A DNA stretch of 43,335 nt from Oscillospiraceae bacterium (GTDB lineage: Bacteria > Bacillota > Clostridia > Oscillospirales > Ruminococcaceae), in assembly GCA_022766825.1 (NCBI GenBank), contig JALEQE010000009.1:1-43335 (forward strand), written 5' to 3'. Numbering within the stretch: the first letter of the stretch is position 1; every line of letters begins with the position of its first letter. The notes below the pieces were generated by a model that did no database searches, was not told the DNA's origin, and saw nothing but the letters and a program-made list of their open reading frames with translations. Made by a program: the position numbers and the translations under genes. Positions 22,384 through 34,641 of this stretch are shown piece after piece.

Positions 22384-22416
22384 AAAGCCGACTTCGCAGT
22401 TTCGCGGGGTCGGCTT
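22384..22416. terminator. GC-rich hairpin before the fliB promoter
   Basis: AAGCCGAC and GTCGGCTT pair around a 17-base loop, with T-rich sequence after the stem on the minus strand. It overlaps the first bases of the fliB -35 box. It may insulate fliB from transcription of the MITE-like element. Confidence 0.45.
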
Positions 22417-22443
22417 GACATTTTACGGTAAAAATGGTATAAT
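22415..22443 (+). promoter_or_regulatory. Consensus sigma-A promoter of fliB
   Basis: TTGACA at 22415-22420 and TATAAT at 22438-22443 with a 17-base spacer, 27 bases before the fliB start. The methylase gene is thus read from a housekeeping promoter, unlike the sigma-28-driven flagellin. Confidence 0.85.
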
Positions 22444-22470: not shown

Positions 22471-23691
22471 ATGTATTACAAACAGCCACAATATTTCGGT
22501 AAGTTTAGGTGTTCGGGCACAGACTGCACAGCAAACTGCTGCTTTGGGTGGTATATCAATTGGACAAAATCCGAACTTGACAAAATTAAGCTCAATCCGA
22601 ACTGCTCACCCGAGCTTGCCGAATTAATCGAAAAAAGTTTTATTCAGTTCGACGAGAAAAAGCCGAATAATTATATGGTGAAATTTGGCGAGGACGGGCG
22701 GTGTCCGTGTCAGACAGAAGAGGGACTTTGCCGTATTCAAAAAGAACTCGGTGCGGAATATTTATCGAATACCTGCACGGTTTACCCGCGGTACAACTCG
22801 TTTTACGACAAGGAAAACGATATCGTTTACAGGGCGTGTTATTTGTCGTGCCAGGAAATTGTACGTTTGCTGGTAAACGATGAAAAAGCGATGGATTTGG
22901 TCAGCATTCCGATAAAAGAACCCAAAGCACAAACGGTAGTGTATTTGGATTCCGATGAAGACGTTTTGGTAAATCCGATTCTGAAAAAACGGTGCGAGAT
23001 TTTTGATTTTCTTTACGAACTTATCGGTGACAAAAAAATCCCTGTTGAAACCGCGATAATTCTTGGTGCGCTTGTGGCGCAGAAAATAACTCAGCTTTCC
23101 GACAGAAAACAATACGATATGATTTCCGAGGCATTACAAGCGTTTAAGAAACAGATACATAGCGCGTCTGCTTTGCAGTCCATCGAAAAAATCAAACCGA
23201 ATTACAACGTAAAATTCGGCGTTGCAGACAAGATAATCGAAAATGCGCTGGATTTCAGAATGACGGACGTCCTGAAAAGCGAAAACGGCGAGCTTGACAT
23301 CAACCGCTACATTATCGGAGAACAAAAGCTCAACGAGATGATGAAAGATAAACCATTTTGGTTGCGCAATATCGCTTTGAATCTGATTTTGGAGCTATGT
23401 GTACCGTTCAAGTCGAAAAAACACACGATATTTGAAAATTACAGCTTTTTTGTGGCGGCAATTGCTTGCGTAAAACTTAACGCGATTGCGGCGGCGTTTG
23501 CTCCCGAAAAGCTGAATATCCAAACAAAAGGTCAAACTTTGCATTTTGAGGGTATCGAAAAAATATATGGTCTTACGGGAATAATCAGCCGACGGATTTT
23601 CCAAAGTTCCCAAGCGTTTGAAAAAGTAACAAAAGTTCTGAATGAGTTCGATATGGATTCGCCTGCGTATTTGGCATTGTTGGTGAAATAA
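22471..23691 (+). CDS. fliB: FliB-family flagellin lysine N-methylase
   Basis: A 406-aa protein of the YkgJ/FliB-like Cys-rich family. The N-terminus has the pattern C14-X4-C19-X3-C23-C24-X2-W27, followed by CPCQTEEGLCRI, SNTCTVYPR and RACYLSCQEI, so eleven cysteines cluster in the first 135 residues. FliB of Salmonella methylates surface lysines of flagellin, and these cysteines are thought to hold an iron-sulfur cluster needed for methyl transfer. The C-terminal 250 residues are helical and poorly conserved. The start has a GGAGG site. The gene converges on the end of the flagellin modification run and the flagellin gene is 9 kb away, so flagellin is the likely substrate. Some family members act on other proteins. 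Confidence 0.85.
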   Translation: MYYKQPQYFGKFRCSGTDCTANCCFGWYINWTKSELDKIKLNPNCSPELAELIEKSFIQFDEKKPNNYMVKFGEDGRCPCQTEEGLCRIQKELGAEYLSNTCTVYPRYNSFYDKENDIVYRACYLSCQEIVRLLVNDEKAMDLVSIPIKEPKAQTVVYLDSDEDVLVNPILKKRCEIFDFLYELIGDKKIPVETAIILGALVAQKITQLSDRKQYDMISEALQAFKKQIHSASALQSIEKIKPNYNVKFGVADKIIENALDFRMTDVLKSENGELDINRYIIGEQKLNEMMKDKPFWLRNIALNLILELCVPFKSKKHTIFENYSFFVAAIACVKLNAIAAAFAPEKLNIQTKGQTLHFEGIEKIYGLTGIISRRIFQSSQAFEKVTKVLNEFDMDSPAYLALLVK

Positions 23692-23692
23692 T

Positions 23693-23717
23693 AAAAAGCG
23701 GGTAGCGCCCGCTTTTT
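23693..23717. terminator. Bidirectional terminator between fliB and the glycan cluster
   Basis: A perfect 10-bp stem AAAAAGCGGG/CCCGCTTTTT with a 5-base loop sits between convergent stops. Runs of T on either strand make it work in both directions. Confidence 0.88.
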
Positions 23718-23721
23718 TGTT

Positions 23722-25260
23722 TTATTGGTTTTCGAGTTTTGCTTTGATTTCAGTTATTTCATCATTGTCCTCAACGCCCATATCTGCTAAATCGTCAAGC
23801 ACGGCGCGGCATTCTTCCGTTTGTTTTTGGTCGCAATATACTTTCGCAAGTTTAACTTTTCCGAGAATAAATTCATCAACGCTTTCCAGCATAGCCGCAA
23901 GCGTCAGATAAACCTGATAAAAAGTTTCGCTGCTTACTTTTTCATTGAGAATTATTTCGGTCATTTTATCAAGTGCCTGAACGTATTTTTTCTGCCAAAG
24001 CATAAAATAAATTTCGCCGTATTTCCGGATAAATTTTATGTCGGTAATTTCGGTAACAAAACCTTTGTCTGCCGAATATTTCGACAATATCTCAACCAAA
24101 TCATACTGCTTTACAAATTCGCCCTTTGAAATAAGTTCCAGCAGTCGTTTGACTATATCCGCGGGATTGTCATTGAAAAGGGCGTTTTTCAGCACATCGT
24201 CACGGTTATATAAATCAATATCACGAACCGAAATATTTGGTGAACAATTTGGGCAAAGTGATTTCAACGCGGAACGAAAATCATCTGTTTCCTCGGTAAG
24301 TTCTGACGCCGCTTCCAAAAACGCAATGAAAATATTGCTTTTACTGTTTGCCGTATCATCGGATTTTACCTGATACGCGCTTGTTGTTTCCTTACGAGCC
24401 AGTATTTTTTGATATTCCGATATTTTCTCTTGCGGCGGAAGATACGATTTCTTTATGTTTGCAACGGTATCACTTATAGCGTTCGCATACACGCGATACA
24501 AAAATGTCATATTCTCCTCGCTTACAGGACCGTAAGGCGCAAGAAAATCCAGAGCGTCGTTGAATAAATAGATGTCAGAATACGACTGGCGGGGATCGTA
24601 TTTGTGCGATACGGATTTCTGATGTATGCGATAGTGGTGAAGTACGGAGTTGTCAATACAAATGCGGTTAGCTTTTCGGAGCCAGGCGAAACAATTGACA
24701 GTATCGGCACCATATGCAACACCGGTGTATTTTGACTCTTGTATAGGTGTACTTGTTATAATATCTGTACGGAACAGTTTCGCCCAACCTGCCCTGAAAA
24801 AGCAATGATAGTATGAATACGCACTTGCAAAATCCTGCATATCAATAATCAGTTGTTGAGAAACATCTCGGTTTATTATATGTGATGTTTCCTCAAAATG
24901 CATTACAGAACCAGTCGAAACAATATCCGAATTTGTTTCTGACGCTACATTTACCAGATGTTCCAGATAATCGGGTTCAAGCCAGTCATCAGCATCAAGT
25001 TGCGAAAAATATTTGCCTGTTCCTATCTCTTTTAAAGCGTAATACCATCTGGCAGCTACTTCATTTTGTTCATAACGAACACGTTTAATTCTGGAATCAC
25101 TCTCAGCGTATTGCTCGATAATCTTTTCTGTTCCGTCATTGCAGCCGTTATCGACAATAATATATTCAAAATCAGAATAAGTCTGTTCCAAAACACTTTT
25201 AATACATTTTTCAATATAGTTCCTTGCGTTATACGCTTGTGTAACAACAGTAATTTTCAT
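23722..25260 (-). CDS. GT2 glycosyltransferase with long helical C-terminus
   Basis: A 512-aa enzyme. Residues 1-200 are a GT-A family 2 domain with VVTQAYNARNYIEKCI, VDNGCNDGTEKII and the metal/nucleotide motif QLDADDW. Residues 270-512 are helical, with TPR-like patterns toward the end. No membrane span is present, so it should act in the cytoplasm on a protein or lipid-linked acceptor. It is the last gene of the nine-gene minus-strand run that begins with flagellin, and it faces fliB across a shared terminator. Donor and acceptor cannot be read from sequence; a sugar transfer to flagellin is inferred from context. Confidence 0.85.
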   Translation of the reverse strand: MKITVVTQAYNARNYIEKCIKSVLEQTYSDFEYIIVDNGCNDGTEKIIEQYAESDSRIKRVRYEQNEVAARWYYALKEIGTGKYFSQLDADDWLEPDYLEHLVNVASETNSDIVSTGSVMHFEETSHIINRDVSQQLIIDMQDFASAYSYYHCFFRAGWAKLFRTDIITSTPIQESKYTGVAYGADTVNCFAWLRKANRICIDNSVLHHYRIHQKSVSHKYDPRQSYSDIYLFNDALDFLAPYGPVSEENMTFLYRVYANAISDTVANIKKSYLPPQEKISEYQKILARKETTSAYQVKSDDTANSKSNIFIAFLEAASELTEETDDFRSALKSLCPNCSPNISVRDIDLYNRDDVLKNALFNDNPADIVKRLLELISKGEFVKQYDLVEILSKYSADKGFVTEITDIKFIRKYGEIYFMLWQKKYVQALDKMTEIILNEKVSSETFYQVYLTLAAMLESVDEFILGKVKLAKVYCDQKQTEECRAVLDDLADMGVEDNDEITEIKAKLENQ

Positions 25261-25301
25261 GTAAATTCCCCTTTATCAGAAGATGTTTAATATTGATAAG
25301 T

Positions 25302-26210
25302 CTACAGCTTTCTGAAATCACAATTATCGGGATCATATCTCAATCTGCTGTTTATGTTTATTTTTAAAATCTGATTGATTTCATCATTATTCAGTTCAAA
25401 ATCATAAATTTCAGAATTTTCAATAACATGTTTTGAATTTGATGAATTAACAACAGGTATATTGCCGATTTGTTGGTGCCACCTCAATATAATTTGTGCA
25501 ACACTTTTTTTATATTTCTGAGCTATGGAAACCAATACGGTTTTATTTAAGCGTTGATCCATTCTTCCTGTAGGAGTATATGCCATGACCTGAATATCAT
25601 TTTCATTGCAATAATTTCTCAGCTCGTCTTGCGTAAATAGAGGGTGGCATTCAAACTGATTAACCATTGGTTTTATATTGGCAGTCGCACCTATTTCTTT
25701 CAAATGATGTATATTGCAATTGCAAACACCTATAGCTTTGCAAAGTCCCTCATCATAAAGCTGTTCAAGAACCTTCCAGTTCTTAACATACAAATCTGTA
25801 ACAGGCCAATGCATCAGATATAGATCAACATACTCCATTCCAAGTTCTGACAAGCTTTTTTCAAAAGCTTCTCTTATATTTCCTTGAAACTGATCTTTAT
25901 TGCGAAGTTTTGTAATGACGAAAAATTTGTTTCTGTCATATTTTTTTAATACTTTACCAAGAACATATTCCGCTCCGCCATAGGCACGCGAAGTATCAAA
26001 GCAACGAATATCGTTTTCCATGGCTGATTTTATTGCTTTAGGTGCTGAAATATCAAGTTTAATTTGGGGTCTGTTCTTTATACAATTTTTCAGCCAATAG
26101 TTTGCTCTACGGGCAAAATTAGTTTCACCGTATCTATACAAATAAACTATACTCGTTCCATAACACAAATCGGGAATAGAAACGCCATTATAAAGGTTAA
26201 ATTCAGGCAT
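25302..26210 (-). CDS. Aldo/keto reductase
   Basis: A 302-aa NAD(P)H-dependent oxidoreductase with a TIM-barrel fold. The catalytic tetrad is visible: Asp and Tyr in CFDTSRAYGGAE, Lys in FVITKLRN and His in YLMHWPVTD. I chose ATG 26210 because GAGGAAG lies 7 bases upstream and family members begin near this point; the 39 extra residues of the longest frame would overlap the upstream gene. The coding sequence is clearly more AT-rich than the neighbours, a hint of separate origin. In a sugar cluster such an enzyme could reduce a keto or aldehyde group of a nucleotide-sugar precursor, but this is inference. Confidence 0.88.
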   Translation of the reverse strand: MPEFNLYNGVSIPDLCYGTSIVYLYRYGETNFARRANYWLKNCIKNRPQIKLDISAPKAIKSAMENDIRCFDTSRAYGGAEYVLGKVLKKYDRNKFFVITKLRNKDQFQGNIREAFEKSLSELGMEYVDLYLMHWPVTDLYVKNWKVLEQLYDEGLCKAIGVCNCNIHHLKEIGATANIKPMVNQFECHPLFTQDELRNYCNENDIQVMAYTPTGRMDQRLNKTVLVSIAQKYKKSVAQIILRWHQQIGNIPVVNSSNSKHVIENSEIYDFELNNDEINQILKININSRLRYDPDNCDFRKL

Positions 26211-26238
26211 AAAATCTTCCTCAATTCTTATTTTGCAG

Positions 26239-27345
26239 TTATTCCTCTTGTAAAGAATTAAAAAAACCGTCAGAAACAAATAACTTGAAAAAATGATTTC
26301 TTTCTCCGCCCAATACGGCATTATCAATTATACAACGGTTATATGGCACAATATCATAAACATTAGCTTCAACAAAATCAAGATGACATTGAGAATCAAC
26401 AAATGCTTTTTTACCTTTTTCGGAATGTATCATAACAGCGGAAACTCCGTTTTTGGTATCAATATCCGGATATTGTTTTTCAACACCCCAGAAATCCGCA
26501 AGGGTTATATCGGTCGTACGTCCGATGCCTTTAAAGCGGCATTGATAACAGCTGTCACGCATATAAAGTGTTGTCTTCGACTTGATATATCCCAACATAA
26601 ACGGATCGGTTTCACGATCAGCGATATACTCTTGTCCATCTTCAAAAATAATCTTCGTGGCAAAATTATTCCAACCGAAAGTCTTGTTTTTAAACCACAC
26701 CCGCTTTACTTTTGAACCGTAACGTTCTTCAAGCTCTCGCAGATATGACAAATAAACAAGCGGAGAATTTACACCGCGACAGATAAAATCGCATAAAAAC
26801 AAGTTTTCATAATCTTTTCCGAGATACGCTTTGAGTCCTGCGCATTGACACGGAGTTCCCGCAAAAAGTAAGGGCTTGCCGTATTTCAACTCTTGCTTTA
26901 TTTCGCGATACACAAAACCGATTTCACTCTGCACATATTTTGATTGTCTCAGTTGCTCAATGTCTTCGGATTTGCGTATGAGTGCATGCTCGACAAGATG
27001 ATCTTCTCTGTAACGCGCGCCGACTACCGTACCGCCCTGTTCGATTACAGTACTTGCGAGATGAGTAAAAACACCGCCCGATGTACTGTTAAATCTGATA
27101 TCTTCATCTTTTGACCAAGCCGCATAACATTCCGGTTCTTTTCCCGTATCTTTATGCTCTTTCAAAACGGGGCATATTTCGGCACATTTTCCGCAATGAA
27201 CACACTTGGTTTCGTCAATTTCTGGGCAAAGAAAACCTTCCGAATCAGGGAGCATTTTAATAGCGTCAACAGGGCAGCAATTCATACAAGCGGCACAACC
27301 CGTACACATATCATGCGGAGTTTGCCGTATTGATTTTATTTCCAA
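26239..27345 (-). CDS. FrhB/FdhB-like iron-sulfur protein of polysaccharide clusters
   Basis: A 368-aa protein. Two 4Fe-4S ferredoxin motifs come first, [12 protein letters not shown] and [12 protein letters not shown]. The coenzyme F420 hydrogenase beta-subunit N- and C-terminal domains follow ([40 protein letters not shown] and CYQCRFKG). Relatives that stand beside polysaccharide pyruvyl transferases are common in surface glycan loci of gut bacteria; their reaction is not established. The start is TTG at 27345 with an ideal AAGGAGGGAG site 5 bases away, overlapping the acyltransferase gene by 10 bases. No F420 biosynthesis gene is in view, so a flavin or another carrier is likely. Confidence 0.85.
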
Positions 27346-27959
27346 ACTACTCCCTCCTTGATTACTTTTGCCGGAACTCCCGCCACCATACAACCGGCGG
27401 GAACATCGTCTGTAACAACAGCGCCTGCGGCAATTACCGCGCCGTCGCCTATGGTTACGCCTTTAAGAACAACCGCTCCGTATCCGATTAAAACGTGATT
27501 TCCGATAACAACCTTCTTTGGTTCATTAAGTACATCGTCCTTTTCATTTAATATCTTATGATGATCGCTGTCGGTAATGTAGGTATTTCGTCCGATAAAT
27601 ACACCGTCGCCTATGGTTATTGATTTGGCACAGGCAATGTTCCCGCCTGTATTAACATAGCCTTTGCCGAGGTCAAGAACAGCATTTTTCCAGATTTCAA
27701 TGCTTGCTCCGAAAAACAGCTGAAAACGTCCGTGAACGTTCAACTTGCCGCCGTTTCTGATTTTAAGATAACTTTCGGCTTTGCTCCCTTTGCGCAAATT
27801 CGCACCAAGTACCAAATCATCGTTTAAATTTATCTGCGAGTTTTGGGAAATATCGCAAATAACATTACCACAGCAATATATTTTTCCATTTTCAGAAGAC
27901 ACAAACGTCTTTCGATTTAAAATCAAACTTGCAAAAGGACGATAACCTGTTAATTTCAT
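27336..27959 (-). CDS. Left-handed beta-helix (hexapeptide) acyltransferase
   Basis: A 207-aa acyltransferase of the maltose/galactoside O-acetyltransferase type. Hexapeptide repeats run through residues 60-200 (for example [15 protein letters not shown] and [20 protein letters not shown]), with the catalytic-type His in TDSDHHKI. It probably adds an acetyl or similar group from acyl-CoA to a glycan. It overlaps the FrhB-like gene and lies 12 bases after the pyruvyl transferase gene. AAAGGAG precedes the ATG. The first 60 residues form an extra beta-helical or beta-sandwich lead-in. Confidence 0.9.
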
Positions 27960-27971
27960 AAAATTCTCCTT

Positions 27972-29036
27972 TTATAAAATTTTCAACACTTCATCGCTTA
28001 CCGCTCTTTGTTTTGACAGTTTGACTTTTTCCACCAATACGCTCTTAATATCCGCGCCTTGCGAACACATTCTTGAAAACGTTGAACAAAGCTTATCTCC
28101 GTCGAGCGAATCTATATCCAGCACAAAATCACTTTGTCCGAGATCGGCGGATATTCCTCGTGCCTTTGCGCTGTAACCTACCGCGATTGTCGGTACAAAG
28201 CTTGACCAGGCGGCTATTGTTGCGTGAGTTCGTGCGGCAACACAATATTCGGCTTTTGAAATAATATACTTATATTCCGCTGCCGAAAGACCTGTCGGAA
28301 CACGATAAATTCTGCTTTCATCGCCTTTCAGCTGTGATAATGACTCAAAGTCGTTATCAACCGAAACTTCAACGTGCGGTACTAACGCAATATTAAAGTC
28401 TGTTTCAGAAATAATTTCATTGATGAGGCTTTGATAAGCGGTTAATACATCGGGATTTTTTCTTATTACCAAAGGACTTAAATTCAGCGTGATATATTTC
28501 CCTTGCGGAATTCGCGTTTCTCTCGGTTCAAGAGTGAAAGCAATATCAGCCGTTTGAACGACATTATTAAGACCCATTTCTTTCAGCGCGTTAAACGAAA
28601 CACTTTCGCGCGCGCATATAAGAGTGTGGGTTCTGAAAACGTCAAGCATTTCCTCGTCAATCATTGACGGCTCAACGGAGCAGCTCCATAAAATACTTTT
28701 AGCACCTTTGCTTATCGCCGCGTTATGTATCGCGGCATATCTCTGCCAATTCGGATAACAATAACAATCACCGCCGACGCTCAGACAAATTGTTTCCGAG
28801 GTAATACGGTTTATTGTGTCCGCGTACATTTCTTCGTTAGTTATTCCGTTCGGGTTTCTACCGATTATTTCATCGGCGGGAATATTAAACTGTTTGTCTT
28901 GTTCGGGAAAATGAGTGGACAGCGTAATTTTGCAGTCGGGAGAGATTTTGCGCAAAAGTTGAATGTCGCATTTTACCGACGCTTCCGAACCGTGATTAAA
29001 CGCGCCTCCATGAGCGTACAGCAGATAATGTTTCAC
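27972..29036 (-). CDS. Polysaccharide pyruvyl transferase family protein
   Basis: A 354-aa protein of the CsaB/WcaK-like family, which transfers ketal pyruvate from phosphoenolpyruvate to a sugar and gives the glycan a negative charge. Markers are YAHGGAFNHGSEASVK at the N-terminus, CLSVGGDCYCYP, the CARESVSFNAL region and the C-terminal VAARTHATIAAWSSFVPTIA with its conserved His. I prefer GTG 29036, which has AGGTG 6 bases upstream and gives the usual short N-terminus; the GTG at 29045 is possible. It follows the GT2 gene with no gap. Some members of this family are sulfotransferase-like or unassigned, so the pyruvyl activity is inferred. Confidence 0.88.
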   Translation of the reverse strand: MKHYLLYAHGGAFNHGSEASVKCDIQLLRKISPDCKITLSTHFPEQDKQFNIPADEIIGRNPNGITNEEMYADTINRITSETICLSVGGDCYCYPNWQRYAAIHNAAISKGAKSILWSCSVEPSMIDEEMLDVFRTHTLICARESVSFNALKEMGLNNVVQTADIAFTLEPRETRIPQGKYITLNLSPLVIRKNPDVLTAYQSLINEIISETDFNIALVPHVEVSVDNDFESLSQLKGDESRIYRVPTGLSAAEYKYIISKAEYCVAARTHATIAAWSSFVPTIAVGYSAKARGISADLGQSDFVLDIDSLDGDKLCSTFSRMCSQGADIKSVLVEKVKLSKQRAVSDEVLKIL

Positions 29037-29045
29037 CGCTTTCAC

Positions 29046-29948
29046 CTACTTTATGTACTTGGTTACCCAATCCTTTTCAAAATCAAGAATTTCGGGACAA
29101 TTCAGAAAATCGTTTTTATTTGTTGAAAGCACAGATGTCATATGTTCAAGCTGTTCTTGACAATCAATCAAATTAAGCCTGTTAATTTTCTCCACCATAG
29201 AAATCATAAACGACCATTCAAAATATCTGAATGTAGCTGCGCTGCTTGGAAAACGCTCCGAGAGCCACTCTGTCCGCGACCTGTAATTTTTCAGATATTC
29301 GTCTAGAATTTCAGATGTAATCAACTTGTGATTTGTTGTCCACGCGGAATTGTTTGAATTATGCCTGTAAAACGTATATTTTGGCAATCCGTGATAAGCC
29401 ACACAATTTGCGTCAGCAATCATTTTATACATTAAAGCTATATCGTCAAATACTCCATCTTCGGGGAACCGATATTTATCTGCAAATGTTCTCTTAAACA
29501 TTTTGGTCGGAAACGCCACGTTATATTTTTTTCTCCACATCAATTCAATCAATGCTTCTTCGGCGGTCATAATCTTTTTTTCATCTAAGGCTTTATCCGT
29601 TGCCCCGCAAATGGATATGTCGGCATTGTTCTCAACTATAAGATTTCGCAGAAACTCAAGAAAATCTGGGTCCGCCCAATCATCATCATCGATAAATGCT
29701 ACGTAATCGCCTTTTGCCGCGTCAAGAGCGGTATTCCGCCCCGCGCCTATATTCCCGCGTTTGCGGTGGATAACCTTGATACGGCTGTCCTTTTTTGCGT
29801 ATTTCTCGGCGATATCGCCGCTTTTATCTGTCGAACCGTTGTCAACAATAATAAATTCAAAATCCTTATAGGTCTGCACCAGAATACTTTCAATAGCGCG
29901 GCCGACCAGATTTTCGCGGTTGTATGTAAGCATAAGTACGGAAATCAT
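29046..29948 (-). CDS. GT2 glycosyltransferase, short form
   Basis: A 300-aa GT-A family 2 enzyme. It shows VLMLTYNRENLVGRAI, VDNGSTDKSGDIA, GAGRNTALDAAKGDY and the DDDDW metal site at about residue 90. The second half holds the acceptor side with a conserved FPEDGVFDDIALMYK, typical of the WcaA/CpsI-like subgroup that builds surface polysaccharides. There are no membrane spans. The gene has an AGGAGG site, lies 18 bases after the nucleotidyltransferase and abuts the pyruvyl transferase. Donor and linkage are unknown. Confidence 0.9.
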   Translation of the reverse strand: MISVLMLTYNRENLVGRAIESILVQTYKDFEFIIVDNGSTDKSGDIAEKYAKKDSRIKVIHRKRGNIGAGRNTALDAAKGDYVAFIDDDDWADPDFLEFLRNLIVENNADISICGATDKALDEKKIMTAEEALIELMWRKKYNVAFPTKMFKRTFADKYRFPEDGVFDDIALMYKMIADANCVAYHGLPKYTFYRHNSNNSAWTTNHKLITSEILDEYLKNYRSRTEWLSERFPSSAATFRYFEWSFMISMVEKINRLNLIDCQEQLEHMTSVLSTNKNDFLNCPEILDFEKDWVTKYIK

Positions 29949-29966
29949 TTAATTGCCTCCTCGCTA

Positions 29967-30743
29967 TTACCACACTTTCCACGGCGCTTTTCCGCTTTGC
30001 CACAAGCCTTCAAGACGATTTCTCTCGTTTACGTTATCCATGCACTGCCAGAAACCGTGATGTGAATATGATTTCAATTCGCCCCGCTCCGCAAGCGTTC
30101 TCATAGGTTCGTTTTCAAAAACGGTAGCGTCGCCTTCAATCAGATCGATTATCTGGGGTTCAAGCACCATAAAACCCGCGTTGATTTTTGCACCGTCTTC
30201 ATACTTCTTTTCGCGGAACGCGCGTACTGTGTTATCTCCGCCAATATCCAAAACACCCTTTTGCTGTTCAAGAATAACGGAAGTGAGCGTTGCGAGTTTA
30301 CCATGCTCTTTGTGAAATTCAACCAGCTTCGATATATCAATATCACACACGCCATCGCCGTATGTCATCATAAATGTTTCGTTGCCGATATAGTTTGTCA
30401 CGCGCTTTATTCTGCCGCCCGTCATTGTATCCAATCCCGTATCGACAACCGTAACTTTCCACGGCTCGCAATGCTGATCGTGAATAATCATATCGTTTTT
30501 GCCGCCGGTAAAATCAAACGTAATATCGCTGTTATGGAGGAAATAATCGGCAAAATACTTTTTTATCATATCCTGTTTATAACCGGCGCAAATAATGAAA
30601 TCGTTGAAGCCATAATGCGAATAGATCTTCATTATATGCCACAAAATCGGTTTGCCGCCTATTTCAACCATAGGCTTCGGCTTGAACATTGACTCCTCCG
30701 TGATACGAGAGCCGTAACCTCCCGCAAGAATTACAACTTTCAT
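29967..30743 (-). CDS. rfbF: Glucose-1-phosphate cytidylyltransferase
   Basis: A 258-aa nucleotidyltransferase that makes CDP-glucose from CTP and glucose-1-phosphate. The nucleotide-binding signature LAGGYGSRITEES...KPKPM is followed by IGGKPILWHIMKIYSHYG, FIICAGYKQDMIKKYF, VDTGLDTMTGGRIKRV and MTYGDGVCDID, which fit RfbF rather than RmlA or GalU. GAGGTG precedes the ATG. CDP-glucose normally feeds CDP-glucose 4,6-dehydratase (RfbG) and gives 3,6-dideoxyhexoses, tyvelose or related sugars. No rfbG is in this window; either it lies elsewhere or CDP-glucose is used directly here. Confidence 0.93.
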   Translation of the reverse strand: MKVVILAGGYGSRITEESMFKPKPMVEIGGKPILWHIMKIYSHYGFNDFIICAGYKQDMIKKYFADYFLHNSDITFDFTGGKNDMIIHDQHCEPWKVTVVDTGLDTMTGGRIKRVTNYIGNETFMMTYGDGVCDIDISKLVEFHKEHGKLATLTSVILEQQKGVLDIGGDNTVRAFREKKYEDGAKINAGFMVLEPQIIDLIEGDATVFENEPMRTLAERGELKSYSHHGFWQCMDNVNERNRLEGLWQSGKAPWKVW

Positions 30744-30751
30744 ATGTCACC

Positions 30752-32842
30752 TCATTGCAACGTATTGTTGATTTCGTCCTTTAACTTTTCAATATCCTCG
30801 TCATTGGGATTGATACCCTGATATTCTTTCAACAGACTTCGCGCCTCGGAAATGTTCCGCGCGTTTATCAGGTCGCGGATATTCTGCTTAACCTGAACGG
30901 CAAGCCGTTCAAATTCGGGATTTACAGCGTTATTTTTGAATGCGTCCTTGTTCTCCTCTTTGTATGCGTCAACTATCGGCACAAGATCCTCGACAACGCC
31001 TTTAAGTTCGCGGATGTCGCTCATAAACTGCTTGTGATTTCCCGCTTTCTTATCAGAAACAACATTGTTTACCAACAGTGCCGCGCGGATATCTCCGGGC
31101 AAGGAACCGTTGTCATGGTGGGAATTGTACCATTTCAAGCCCAAATCGCCGTACATCTCAAAAATCCGTGATATTTCGTGATTGTTGTCCAATGCTCTCA
31201 GCATTACCCAGCCATAAAGGCTTGTGGCGTTTACCATACCCTCGCTTGAAATATTGCTTGTGTTGTAATTTTGGAACAGTTCAAAACCGTTCGGGAAATA
31301 GTTCATTAAAAGCTGAACCGCTCTGTCGGCGAAAAAGTCATTCGTGAGCAAAAACGGCGTTATGTCCTCTTGCTTTTCAAGCAGAATGTACAGCATATCC
31401 TCGCTGTTTTCCGAACCGTTCTTCTCGAGAAACGTTTTGATAAGCTCAGTGTTTGCACTGTCGTGTTCAAAGTATTCGCGGTAAATCGGCATAAGCTCGG
31501 ACGGTAGACCGCTCAACTGTGCCAGCTGCTTTAGCAGTACGGAATGATTTTCGGGTGATGTCTTGAAAATCTGACGGCGGATAGCGGTAAGAAGATAGTT
31601 TTTCCCGAAATCATCAAGCTGTCTGTATAATTCGTCGAATTTCTTATACCCGACATTCTCCATTATTTCAATGCGAATGTTCAGGTGGTTTATCATAAAG
31701 TCGTGGTCGTCAAAATACTTTTCAAGCGGAATCGCCTTTGTGTAATCGTCCGCGAGAGCAAATTTCTTTTCCTGATAGCAGCAGCGGAACAAAATATCAA
31801 ACGCGGCTTTTACTATTGATAGATTTGACCTAAAGTTATCCATCATTAAGTCAACCGTATTCAACTTGTTTTGCGTGTATTTTTTATATAGATTAGCGAA
31901 CGCAATCAAATCTGAAATAGCATCATTATATTTTGTTTCCCTATAATAAGCATAACCACGTGAAAAGAATATAAAACAGTCAGATGCCAACTCTGAAGTA
32001 TGAGATGGATTTTTGTTGATATCAAAATAATCTTGAGCAGTTTCAATTATTTCTTGATATTTTTCTTGTTTAATTAGCAGTTCGATTTTATGGGAATAAT
32101 ATGTTGTTATACCTATACGTTTGTGATTGAGTTTTTCCAAACCCATATTAACGTATTCAAGAGCTTTTTCGTCTTCATCAATTATTTCGTAACAATCTGC
32201 TATTTCATCGTAAATATTAAAATTTCGTTCAGTAATGTTTTCATCATCAAGTTCTCCAAACAAATACTCCAAATTTCTTTTGTTTTTTTCGCGGGCAAGT
32301 TCGGTAATAGCACCGTTATCCGAATATAAATATCCGAAGTGGTCAGCTATAAGATTAAGGAACTTTATTGGAGCACGAAAAGGTGTAAATGTTTCATGAA
32401 TTCTGCCTTGAAATTTAATTTCGCCATCATTTGAAACAAGTCTTTGAGATCTAATATCAGAAAAATAATTCATATTAGATATATCAGTATATGATCTAAC
32501 AATATATGTTGCCGAATTATATTTCCTATACTCACCCGATTTAAAGAAATGAATTATATCTGAACAATCCTGTAAAATTTCATCCGCGTCAATAAACATA
32601 AACCACTCGCCTTTTGCTCTTTCAAGAGTGGAGTTACGAGCGGCGGCAAAATCGTTTATCCATTCAAAATGAAACACATTATCCGTAAATTTCTTTGCAA
32701 TCTCAACAGTATTATCCGTTGAACCTGTATCAGCAATAATAAGCTCGCTGTCAAGCTCATTAAGTATAGGCTGCAAAGCTGTTAAACACTTCTCCAGATA
32801 CTTTTCCTCATTTTTTACAATCATTCCAATTGACAGTACCAT
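30752..32842 (-). CDS. GT2-TPR glycosyltransferase directly after flagellin
   Basis: A 696-aa protein. Residues 1-200 are a GT2 domain (IGMIVKNEEKYLEKCL, IADTGSTDNTVEIAKKFTD, ARNSTLERAKGEW and the FIDADEI metal motif). Residues 200-690 are helical with TPR-like repeats, which often bind the protein acceptor. This is the architecture of SunS-like and flagellin glycosyltransferases, and a GT2 gene immediately after fliC is also found in Clostridioides difficile, where it starts flagellin glycosylation. Its leader shares the 17 bases TTCAAGGAGGATATTAT with the flagellin leader. The middle of the gene, about 31800-32600, is clearly more AT-rich than its ends. A flagellin terminator separates it from fliC, so some readthrough or a further promoter is needed. 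Confidence 0.88.
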   Translation of the reverse strand: MVLSIGMIVKNEEKYLEKCLTALQPILNELDSELIIADTGSTDNTVEIAKKFTDNVFHFEWINDFAAARNSTLERAKGEWFMFIDADEILQDCSDIIHFFKSGEYRKYNSATYIVRSYTDISNMNYFSDIRSQRLVSNDGEIKFQGRIHETFTPFRAPIKFLNLIADHFGYLYSDNGAITELAREKNKRNLEYLFGELDDENITERNFNIYDEIADCYEIIDEDEKALEYVNMGLEKLNHKRIGITTYYSHKIELLIKQEKYQEIIETAQDYFDINKNPSHTSELASDCFIFFSRGYAYYRETKYNDAISDLIAFANLYKKYTQNKLNTVDLMMDNFRSNLSIVKAAFDILFRCCYQEKKFALADDYTKAIPLEKYFDDHDFMINHLNIRIEIMENVGYKKFDELYRQLDDFGKNYLLTAIRRQIFKTSPENHSVLLKQLAQLSGLPSELMPIYREYFEHDSANTELIKTFLEKNGSENSEDMLYILLEKQEDITPFLLTNDFFADRAVQLLMNYFPNGFELFQNYNTSNISSEGMVNATSLYGWVMLRALDNNHEISRIFEMYGDLGLKWYNSHHDNGSLPGDIRAALLVNNVVSDKKAGNHKQFMSDIRELKGVVEDLVPIVDAYKEENKDAFKNNAVNPEFERLAVQVKQNIRDLINARNISEARSLLKEYQGINPNDEDIEKLKDEINNTLQ

Positions 32843-32873
32843 AATATCCTCCTTGAAAATATGATATTCTCAC

Positions 32874-32902
32874 AAAAACGCCCTCCCCTTGCGGAGAGGG
32901 CG
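32874..32902 (-). terminator. Terminator or attenuator after flagellin
   Basis: On the minus strand CGCCCTCTCC pairs with GGGGAGGGCG around a short GCAA-type loop, followed by TTTTTG. It would stop most transcripts after flagellin and lower expression of the glycosyltransferase genes behind it. Confidence 0.82.
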
Positions 32903-32986
32903 CAATTGTCAAACTATCATGCCGCTAAGCCGCTCTGATTCCCGGGATCAATGCGAAAAGCGGAAATTTTGAAGCTGTGTTGGCAA

Positions 32987-34477
32987 TTAGCCGAGGAGCT
33001 GCAGAATGGACTGCGGCTGCTGATTTGCCTGAGCGAGCATAGACTGAGCTGCCTGCTGCAGAATGTTGTACTTGGTGTAGTTCATCATTTCGTTAGCCAT
33101 ATCGGTATCGCGAATGTTGGACTCAGCTTCAGACAGGTTGGTAGAAGTTGTAGTCAGGTTGTCGATCTTGTGCTCAAGTCTGTTCTGCATAGCACCGAAT
33201 GTAGCACGAACCATAGAGGTCTTGTTGATAGCGTTATCGATGTGGTCGATAGCTTCGTTAGCCTTCTCAGCAGTTACGAGAGAGAGCTGTGCAGTACCAA
33301 GACCGCGAGCGGAGATATCGAGGTCAGCGTTCAGATCGCCGATACCGCTTGTGGTGTAAGAGAACGTAAAGTCAACAGCGTCCTTGGAACGTGCGCCTGT
33401 CTGGAGCGTAATGCTGTTGGAGTATGTAAGATTACGTCTGCCATGCTCAAATGCATCAGAAACAGATACGCCCTTGGAAACCTTAATATTACCAACAGTA
33501 TTGCCAGCTTTATCTGTAACAGCGCCATTTGCTCCTACTTGATATTCTTGTGCAATTTTAACATTACCGGCTTTAGTAGCAGTGGGGTTAGTAATGGTGA
33601 TTGTTGCACCGTTGACACCTGTTACAGTAGTACCCTTGCTGTCAACCAAAGTCCAGTTACCAGTTGCAGGCTTTTTAAATTCAAAAGTCTGACCATAAAT
33701 TGTAATTTTGCTAGTGTCTTCGTTAACTGCAAGATTAGTTTCTGCAGAAATCTTACCAGCACTTACAACACCTTTAGACGTTGAAATACCTGTCGTTGTC
33801 TTATATGCGGTATCGCCAACCTTTAATGTTGCGGTAGCAGAGGCAGCCTCCTTGCCATTATCCAACAATCCACCCTTGAGTTTAATGCTAACGCCGTCAA
33901 CGTTAATCATACCGTTACCGCCTTGATCAACGTAGCCATTTACGCCGCCTTTATAAGTAACAGCAGAAGAAGTGTCGTCAACACTGTTTGTTGCAACAAC
34001 AGGCTTGCCCGCAACAGTTGAATTATTTGTAGCAACAGAACCGTCAGCCATTGTACCGCCGTTCAGAGCAACACGACCGTTGAAGTCGGTGTCTGCGATC
34101 TGGTTCAATTCGTCGTTCAACTGATCGAACTCGAGCTGAATAGCGTCACGGTCTGTGGTGTTGTCGTATGTGCCGTTAGCAGATTCGGAAGCGAGTTCCT
34201 TCATTCTTTGCAGAATGTTGTGAGTTTCCTGAGCAGCACCCTCGTAAGTCTGGATCATATTGATACCGTCCTGAGAGTTACGAACTGCCTGGTTCAGACC
34301 ACGGATCTGGGATCTCATCTTCTCGGAAATTGCCAAACCTGCTGCGTCATCGCCTGCACGGTTGATTCTGTAACCGGAAGCAAGTTTTTCAGAAGACTTT
34401 TTAAGACCTGCAACGTTAGTGTTGAGCTTGTTGTACGCGGTCAACGCGTTTAAGTTATGTTGTACTACCATTCCCAT
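32987..34477 (-). CDS. fliC: Flagellin
   Basis: A 496-aa filament subunit. Residues 1-145 are the conserved D0/D1 start (VVQHNLNALTAYNKLNTN, SGYRINRAGDDAAGLAISEK, NSQDGINMIQTYEGA). Residues 145-370 are a Thr/Val/Gly/Lys-rich variable domain exposed on the filament, with many lysines that FliB could methylate and many Ser/Thr that could be glycosylated. The last 100 residues are the D1/D0 end, closing with NILQQAAQSMLAQANQQP and ILQLLG. I chose ATG 34477 because AAGGAGGA lies just upstream and flagellins start with MxxVxxN. A sigma-28 promoter precedes it. The next gene is a GT2-TPR glycosyltransferase. Confidence 0.97.
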   Translation of the reverse strand: MGMVVQHNLNALTAYNKLNTNVAGLKKSSEKLASGYRINRAGDDAAGLAISEKMRSQIRGLNQAVRNSQDGINMIQTYEGAAQETHNILQRMKELASESANGTYDNTTDRDAIQLEFDQLNDELNQIADTDFNGRVALNGGTMADGSVATNNSTVAGKPVVATNSVDDTSSAVTYKGGVNGYVDQGGNGMINVDGVSIKLKGGLLDNGKEAASATATLKVGDTAYKTTTGISTSKGVVSAGKISAETNLAVNEDTSKITIYGQTFEFKKPATGNWTLVDSKGTTVTGVNGATITITNPTATKAGNVKIAQEYQVGANGAVTDKAGNTVGNIKVSKGVSVSDAFEHGRRNLTYSNSITLQTGARSKDAVDFTFSYTTSGIGDLNADLDISARGLGTAQLSLVTAEKANEAIDHIDNAINKTSMVRATFGAMQNRLEHKIDNLTTTSTNLSEAESNIRDTDMANEMMNYTKYNILQQAAQSMLAQANQQPQSILQLLG

Positions 34478-34502
34478 AATAATATCCTCCTTGAATTTGG
34501 TT

Positions 34503-34533
34503 GCCCCGTTTTTTCGGAATCTTTCCGAGGGGC
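34503..34533 (-). promoter_or_regulatory. Structured flagellin leader hairpin
   Basis: The leader has GCCCC/GGGGC and an inner CGGAA/TTCCG inverted repeat between the sigma-28 start site and the ribosome binding site. GGA motifs in a leader hairpin and in the AAGGAGGA site are the kind of target that CsrA uses in Bacillus hag mRNA. No csrA or fliW gene is in the window, so this is a suggestion only. Confidence 0.4.
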
Positions 34534-34599
34534 TTAAAAGTAATTGGTTTGCCTTGTGTCGACCCAAGGACTTTCAGCTTTTCAGCTGTCACGTATATA

Positions 34600-34626
34600 T
34601 TATCGGACAAGTTTTACAAAACTTTA
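34600..34626 (-). promoter_or_regulatory. Sigma-28 (SigD/FliA) promoter of flagellin
   Basis: On the minus strand TAAA (34623-34626), a 15-base spacer and TCCGATAA (34600-34607) match the flagellar sigma consensus TAAA-N15-GCCGATAA in all but one base. The start codon lies about 120 bases downstream. Confidence 0.88.
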
Positions 34627-34641
34627 GCTTTTTTTGAAAAT

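Follow-up and report, generated by a model that had tools for sequence, protein, structure and literature searches.

The flagellin gene fliC of an Oscillospiraceae bacterium and the sugar-related genes arranged behind it, found on contig JALEQE010000009.1 of assembly GCA_022766825.1 (the whole stretch of 43,335 nucleotides, hereafter the window), probably constitute a flagellin glycosylation cassette accompanied by a separately transcribed flagellin methylase, giving a filament decorated with an acidic, acylated oligosaccharide and with methyl-lysine. The source assembly (G000) comprises 1.83 Mb in 202 contigs at 86.75% completeness, and the window is a single contig of 43 kb. As judged from sequence, the cassette would belong to a known kind; what appears newer is the pairing of a glucose-1-phosphate cytidylyltransferase (RfbF) with a glycosyltransferase (GT2b) where RfbG is lacking, together with the testable prediction that cytidine diphosphate glucose (CDP-glucose) is used. 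More tentatively, we propose that RfbF and GT2b may form a CDP-glucose-dependent glucosylation module acting on the flagellin glycan, with the finished flagellin carrying both a pyruvate ketal and methyl-lysine, a fuller picture that we hold to be possible yet somewhat short of probable.

An earlier note on this DNA had described flagellin, labelled as a sigma-28 gene, as heading a nine-gene minus-strand run onto whose end a gene for a FliB-type lysine methylase converges, and all ten genes were located in just that arrangement (Table 1). From the GT2-TPR gene onward, the genes are separated by gaps of 0-41 bp with a single overlap of 10 bp, once the starts of two of them (the FrhB-like and aldo/keto reductase genes) have been moved. 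The spacing between fliC and the GT2-TPR gene is 144 bp and includes a terminator-like hairpin; across the whole region such hairpins number 13 against 13.0 expected, and are thus not in excess. In support of the sigma-28 label, a single site that departs from the pattern at one position lies ∼120 bp before the flagellin start. At up to two mismatches the pattern gave 17 matches in the window against 6.5 expected; because the pattern is weak alone, the site is judged by its place more than by its score. The fliB gene has a sigma-70-like promoter of its own with a perfect match and is therefore probably outside sigma-28 control, hence made independently of the flagellin regulon.

Table 1. Genes and candidate control elements of the flagellin locus in the window
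Feature	Coordinates	Strand	Basis
Sigma-28-like promoter of fliC, TAAAGTTT-N11-TCCGATAA	34600..34626	-	pattern search, 1 mismatch
fliC, flagellin, 496 amino acids	32987..34477	-	ATG 34477; Flagellin_N match
Terminator-like hairpin between fliC and GT2-TPR gene, possible attenuator	32878..32903	-	hairpin search
GT2-TPR, GmaR/SunS-like glycosyltransferase	30752..32842	-	Pfam and PDB sequence matches
rfbF, glucose-1-phosphate cytidylyltransferase (makes CDP-glucose)	29967..30743	-	TIGR02623, 385.7 bits against cut-off of 300.25
GT2b, glycosyltransferase, putative CDP-glucose user	29046..29948	-	family match, relatives
Polysaccharide pyruvyl transferase-like protein (PF04230)	27972..29045	-	PS_pyruv_trans, 101 bits against 25.3
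Hexapeptide-repeat acyltransferase, acetyltransferase-like	27336..27959	-	family match
FrhB/FdhB-like iron-sulfur protein	26239..27345	-	FrhB_FdhB_C, 62.2 bits against 23.3; TTG 27345 proposed, longest open reading frame from 27393
Aldo/keto reductase	25302..26210	-	Aldo_ket_red, 166 bits against 24; start ATG 26210 proposed
GT2c, last glycosyltransferase of the run	23722..25260	-	family match, relatives
Terminator-like hairpin, both strands, between convergent GT2c and fliB ends	23693..23717	both	hairpin search
fliB, flagellin lysine N-methylase, CX4CX3CC motif	22471..23691	+	NF038110, 148.3 bits against cut-off of 85
Sigma-70-type promoter of fliB, TTGACA-17-TATAAT, 12-of-12 match	22415..22443	+	pattern search

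The run has the marks of a flagellin glycosylation island, with genes for sugar transfer and sugar activation directly beside flagellin, a transferase related to GmaR and recurrence in relatives. The closest counterpart (locus L186) lies in a 100% complete genome (G237) from another family of the same order and presents flagellin, GT2-TPR, RfbF, GT2b, pyruvyl transferase, hexapeptide enzyme, FrhB-like protein and GT2c in the order of the window, at identities of 55% (RfbF), 67% (GT2b), 49% (pyruvyl transferase), 49% (hexapeptide enzyme), 48-49% (FrhB-like protein) and 37% over 518 amino acids (GT2c); three radical-SAM genes occupy the position of the aldo/keto reductase. A further flagellin island of G237 (L185) likewise carries RfbF-GT2b but differs in its middle. 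Each of the two flagellins of this genome thus has an RfbF-GT2b island of its own, and the cell may possibly make two differently decorated flagellins. Flavonifractor sp. An306 (L097) shares the RfbF, GT2b, hexapeptide, FrhB-like and GT2c genes as well as the pyruvyl gene, which there comes last, and Oscillibacter sp. 1-3 (L112) and an uncultured Oscillibacter (L106, in which the pyruvyl gene is cut by the end of the fetched piece) share RfbF, GT2b, GT2c and the pyruvyl gene. The common plan is a fixed front of flagellin, GT2-TPR, RfbF and GT2b, an exchangeable middle, and GT2c towards the end. Four radical-SAM proteins stand in a row in L112 (13762-18392), with several relatives in L185 and L187, and the flagellin island of Oceanirhabdus seepicola (L107, 7093-8622) encodes an AMP-binding, acyl- or amino acid-activating enzyme between radical-SAM and pyruvyl-type genes, which may hint at a substituent attached through an amide or ester. 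The comparison of gene order behind flagellin, proposed in the earlier note as a check, thus found the order again in L186 and parts of it elsewhere, and did not find it in two other genomes of the genus. Gene order and relatives together argue for that note's suggestion of a filament bearing methyl-lysine and a glycan with pyruvate and acyl groups.

The first glycosyltransferase probably attaches the first sugar to flagellin, and by analogy that sugar would be N-acetylglucosamine (GlcNAc). Among solved structures, the best relative of its N-terminal 200 residues is a chain named GmaR (E = 4.3e-27 with the sequence alone, 4.1e-48 with a profile of seven relatives), followed by SunS; in the C-terminal half no PDB sequence match was detected. 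Of the label GT2-TPR given in the earlier note, the GT2 domain is of GmaR type; as to the TPR part, the protein has no Pfam TPR match at E up to 10, as against a relative in L084 in which TPR matches are present. GmaR of Listeria transfers GlcNAc to flagellin (PMC9638930). Like that flagellin GlcNAc transferase and antirepressor, the window enzyme combines a similar GT2 domain over ∼200 residues with a long C-terminal part and is linked to flagellin; unlike it, the window enzyme heads a glycan operon and has a C-terminal half devoid of detected PDB matches. The likeness to GmaR that was detected is one of the GT2 domain.

How closely the enzyme keeps company with flagellin was assessed in 197 genomes of the family, 67 of which have a Flagellin_N match; the model also matches FlgL, and some of the 67 may therefore be without a true flagellin. 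GT2-TPR matches of at least 130 bits, a line drawn after the list had been seen, all fall in genomes with a Flagellin_N match (18 of 18, against 49 of the 179 other genomes), and at E = 1e-20 the enzyme is matched in 45 genomes, 25 of them with Flagellin_N (P = 0.001). Flagellin is immediately followed by the gene in seven of the 18 strong carriers (the window, G118, G157, G005, G147, G018 and G030), and no flagellin was found beside it in the pieces read of five others (G077, G136, G021, G122 and G167), adjacency having been read in 12 of the 18. A scan of named genomes kept 80 loci out of at least 563 confirmed matches; among the matches listed, the best were mostly from Oscillospiraceae metagenome-assembled genomes and the lower ones wide-ranging. 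In 32 of the 80 the GT2-TPR gene lies at most 418 bp downstream of flagellin, in 16 flagellin is elsewhere on the piece, and in 32 there is none on the piece, five of these having the gene within 1.5 kb of the piece start. With 32 of 80 kept loci, the neighbourhood of flagellin and GT2-TPR is more than chance. The simplest form was seen in G118 (L063), in which flagellin is followed by a GT2-TPR enzyme 46% identical to that of the window over its full length; BLAST detected none of the other run genes in this 20-kb piece, and three of its scanned neighbours are, by Pfam, not sugar genes.

RfbF normally feeds RfbG, the CDP-glucose 4,6-dehydratase, and to our knowledge CDP-glucose is known only as a precursor of CDP-deoxysugars. 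The genome of the window has RfbF of the CDP-6-deoxy/dideoxyhexose pathway and no RfbG over the cut-off, the best match reaching 97 bits against 278 in an assembly that is 86.75% complete. Thirteen flagellin islands with RfbF were compared, several on pieces that end within the island and one (L109) on a piece of only 4.2 kb. Five are of the RfbG type (L067, L069, L136, L091/L194 and L159), and in eight GT2b stands right behind RfbF (the window, L186, L185, L112, L106, L097, L107 and L109); L091 carries a 32% identical GT2 further along that was not counted as GT2b. No run protein is better conserved than GT2b in L186, L185, L112, L106 and L097 (66-69% identity); in L107 RfbF comes closer to its window counterpart than GT2b does (66% against 51%). 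Eight of the ten GT2b genomes searched have no RfbG over the cut-off (G000, G197, G198, G199, G237, G568, G397 and G313), a count to be read with an only ∼40% identical GT2b in G313, an incomplete G000 and untold completeness of G197-G201. In the other two (G200 and G201) RfbG sits beside a second RfbF on a contig other than that of the flagellin island, and it is present in all four RfbG-type genomes searched (G147, G030, G202 and G203). The idea that the GT2b islands have an RfbF subfamily of their own was considered and dropped: a tree of 18 RfbF proteins mixes GT2b and RfbG rows, and 150 of 500 shuffles gave a value as low. Since the tree does not separate the two sorts, the enzyme would be the same and presumably its product, CDP-glucose, with two fates; from the shared RfbF and the missing RfbG we infer that GT2b takes glucose from CDP-glucose as the direct glucosyl donor. 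In a draw of 394 genomes, four GT2b relatives of at least 60% identity besides that of the window occur in three genomes, each with flagellin, and the ten GT2b genomes taken forward all have flagellin. Nine genomes of the draw have a GT2b match, the weaker, partial ones of G242, G300, G391 and G464 lying outside the genome searches for RfbG and flagellin; BLAST found neither RfbF nor flagellin in the pieces around these four.

Alternatively, the CDP-glucose made by RfbF could be converted before transfer, the FrhB-like protein and aldo/keto reductase here, and radical-SAM enzymes elsewhere, taking the place of RfbG so that a deoxy sugar is transferred. Redox or radical enzymes do occur mid-run in the window, L186, L097, L112, L106 and L107, but they vary between islands while RfbF-GT2b stays, and RfbG, where it exists in GT2b genomes, pairs with another RfbF. 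We consider conversion before transfer rather unlikely.

Among the middle-gene products, the PF04230 protein is the predicted pyruvyl transferase. It keeps R146, R272-x-H274 and K294, with the histidine-lysine spacing of 20 that separates H308 and K328 in CsaB, a correspondence drawn from motif and spacing rather than from an alignment to the CsaB sequence, and weakest for R146. In CsaB, R148, H308 and K328 were found critical to phosphoenolpyruvate binding (PMC10435577). The residue pattern holds in L112, L186, L097, L164 and L165, and does not in the divergent L107 protein. By family and by candidate phosphoenolpyruvate-binding residues, the enzyme resembles the ketal-pyruvyltransferases CsaB, WcaK and Pvg1p. 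The aldo/keto reductase stands somewhat apart: its open reading frame has 33.0% GC compared with 37.9-46.4% in the other run genes, and its gene may be a recent insertion.

Taken together, the cassette suggests the following course. Sigma-28 RNA polymerase would make much fliC transcript and, past the possible attenuator, some transcript covering the glycan genes. Flagellin would receive its first sugar (GlcNAc by analogy) in the cytoplasm, from the GmaR-like enzyme, on serine or threonine of its middle domain; RfbF would supply CDP-glucose from which GT2b adds glucose to that sugar, and GT2c would add a further one. Using phosphoenolpyruvate, the PF04230 enzyme would introduce a pyruvate ketal; acylation, with acetyl or another acyl group, would fall to the hexapeptide enzyme, and the FrhB-like protein and the aldo/keto reductase would alter a sugar or substituent by reduction. 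FliB would methylate lysines of the same flagellin, and the decorated subunit would be exported last; with export after decoration, neither a flippase nor a polymerase would be needed.

A number of observations weigh against this course of events. Every biosynthetic step is assigned by family, and PDB sequence searches gave no match to the pyruvyl transferase. The pyruvyl gene is rare, occurring in three of the 197 genomes, and the other two (G014 and G134) have no Flagellin_N match; FrhB-like relatives are found in 41, of which 11 have a Flagellin_N match and 30 do not. In G397, G568 and G313, which all have flagellin, GT2b is not beside it in the pieces read, and in G568 GT2b and RfbF are on different contigs. 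Within the genus, G180 has flagellin and no GT2-TPR match, and G094 has neither, a pattern of non-conservation that would fit the variable character of such islands. The hairpin that follows fliC could also disconnect expression of the glycan genes from that of flagellin. Lastly, FliB as a family shows no association with flagellin: a Flagellin_N match is present in 23 of the 53 genomes over the cut-off and in 44 of the 144 others (P = 0.13).

The family name of FliB was for this reason set aside as proof of flagellin methylation, and it is a tree that rescues the reading. The CX4CX3CC cluster motif of FliB (PMC8598068) lies at residues 14-24 of the window protein, and as it is present in all 37 proteins examined it does not discriminate. 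The tree holds these 37 proteins (30 from loci of the family draw, four more on flagellin pieces of the same draw, two from the named-genome scan, and that of the window); adjacency to flagellin partly guided the choice of rows, the tree has several long end branches, and 34 of the 53 genomes over the cut-off are included, with 19 left out. A branch with support of 100/98 sets apart 11 proteins, namely the six copies adjacent to flagellin (that of the window is one) and five further ones; all 11 come from genomes that have a flagellin-type gene. All 15 FliB-like proteins from genomes lacking a flagellin-type gene are among the remaining 26. A target other than flagellin, for which FliB members over the cut-off in 30 genomes without a Flagellin_N match speak, is rendered distinctly unlikely by the place of the window protein in the 11-member group. 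A different layout was seen in G180 (L064), where FliB lies ∼14 kb beyond flagellin in convergent orientation, with an FkbM-type methyltransferase between.

The earlier note had also raised the alternative that the middle genes build a surface polysaccharide and merely happen to neighbour flagellin, and had named sugar genes travelling apart from flagellin, beside capsule genes, as a case that would refute the flagellin reading. Such a case was found for single genes only. The pyruvyl relatives of G014 and G134 (L164 and L165) sit among several GT2 genes in genomes without a Flagellin_N match, next to one of them is an ABC ATPase that matches Wzt_C only below threshold, and the FrhB-like relatives without flagellin have been counted above. 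A chance placement of the RfbF to GT2c genes behind flagellin and GT2-TPR is nevertheless very improbable: seven of the eight downstream genes keep their order behind flagellin in L186, RfbF-GT2b follows directly on flagellin and GT2-TPR in L185, L112, L106, L097, L107 and L109 as well, and Flavonifractor and Oscillibacter carry portions of the set behind their flagellin genes. A Wzx/Wzy- or ABC-type polysaccharide cluster is likewise disfavoured, as a scan that covered the nine run proteins, and not the remainder of the genome, detected neither a flippase nor a polymerase and neither an initiating transferase nor an exporter. Very improbable too is that flagellin receives only the first sugar and the remaining genes modify another cytoplasmic acceptor, since RfbF and GT2b are repeatedly co-located with flagellin across families and the ten GT2b genomes taken forward (the four with weaker matches lying outside the check) have flagellin; in favour of this reading is the minimal locus of G118 described above.

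Among known systems, the proposed glycan cassette is close to the type A and B loci of Clostridioides difficile, where glycan genes lie behind fliC, an enzyme encoded next to fliC adds O-linked GlcNAc, and later genes extend and decorate it (PMC4441256, PMC5207246). The extension differs, being phosphorylated N-methylthreonine in type A and rhamnose with a sulfonated peptidylamido-glycan in type B, whereas the window has RfbF, a pyruvyl transferase, a hexapeptide enzyme, an FrhB-like protein and FliB; the terms rfbF, CDP and pyruvyl do not occur in PMC5207246. Variable sets of sugar genes beside flagellin are also seen in Geobacillus islands (PMC5109656) and Enterobacterales flag-2 loci (PMC6993521), with other gene content and no CDP-glucose route in the available parts of these papers. 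The flag-2 loci list a WcaK-type pyruvyl transferase, acetyltransferases and the FliB-type LafV, and for those of Citrobacter a genome-based prediction of pyruvyl groups on flagellin glycans is in print (PMC6993521). The earlier statement that the combination beside flagellin was not a recognised one is softened to this extent. In a 2019 review, pyruvylation is described on polysaccharides, on cell-wall polymers and on N-glycans; the string "flagell" occurs in it twice, and the place shown is the name of an alga (PMC6801904). As in Salmonella, FliB exceeds the cut-off of the family model, has the CX4CX3CC motif and lies near flagellin, but the methylation islands of Enterobacteriaceae are inserts with the methyltransferase and no other glycosylation-island genes (PMC8598068, PMC4875605), and the window has both side by side. 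Flagellins of Aeromonas and Shewanella are both glycosylated and methylated (PMC9290775), so that the joining of glycan and methylation is not new as such. In the open-access literature we did not find the window's combination of parts described for Clostridia, and a literature search returned no paper joining a pyruvyl transferase with an F420-type protein. None of the papers listed for flagellin glycosylation in Oscillospiraceae dealt with that modification, and those listed for CDP-glucose as a donor do not name this sugar and carry no weight either way.

Regarding the acceptor, flagellin residues 141-405 contain 22.6% serine plus threonine and 7.5% lysine. An open reading frame of 526 amino acids with a TTG start, reaching to 34567, was judged too long, and ATG 34477 is preferred. 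The second Flagellin_N match of the genome (contig C140, 35.5 bits) is FlgL-like by its place beside flgK, flgN, fliW, csrA and fliD, and these neighbours indicate that filament assembly genes are present. The flagellin leader (34478-34595, minus strand; folded as 34471-34595) is structured, with a z-score of -2.1 and five of 200 shuffles folding as well; with fliW and csrA adjacent in the genome, control of flagellin translation by CsrA and FliW is plausible.

Hosts sense the flagella of gut Clostridia, and the glycans on them influence both motility and the charge of the surface. From a cassette that recurs across several families, a particular acidic flagellin glycan can be predicted and then sought directly in isolates of the carriers. 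Should GT2b draw on CDP-glucose, this nucleotide sugar, otherwise taken for an intermediate only, would have a use of its own, and rfbF genes that occur elsewhere without rfbG would need to be read anew.

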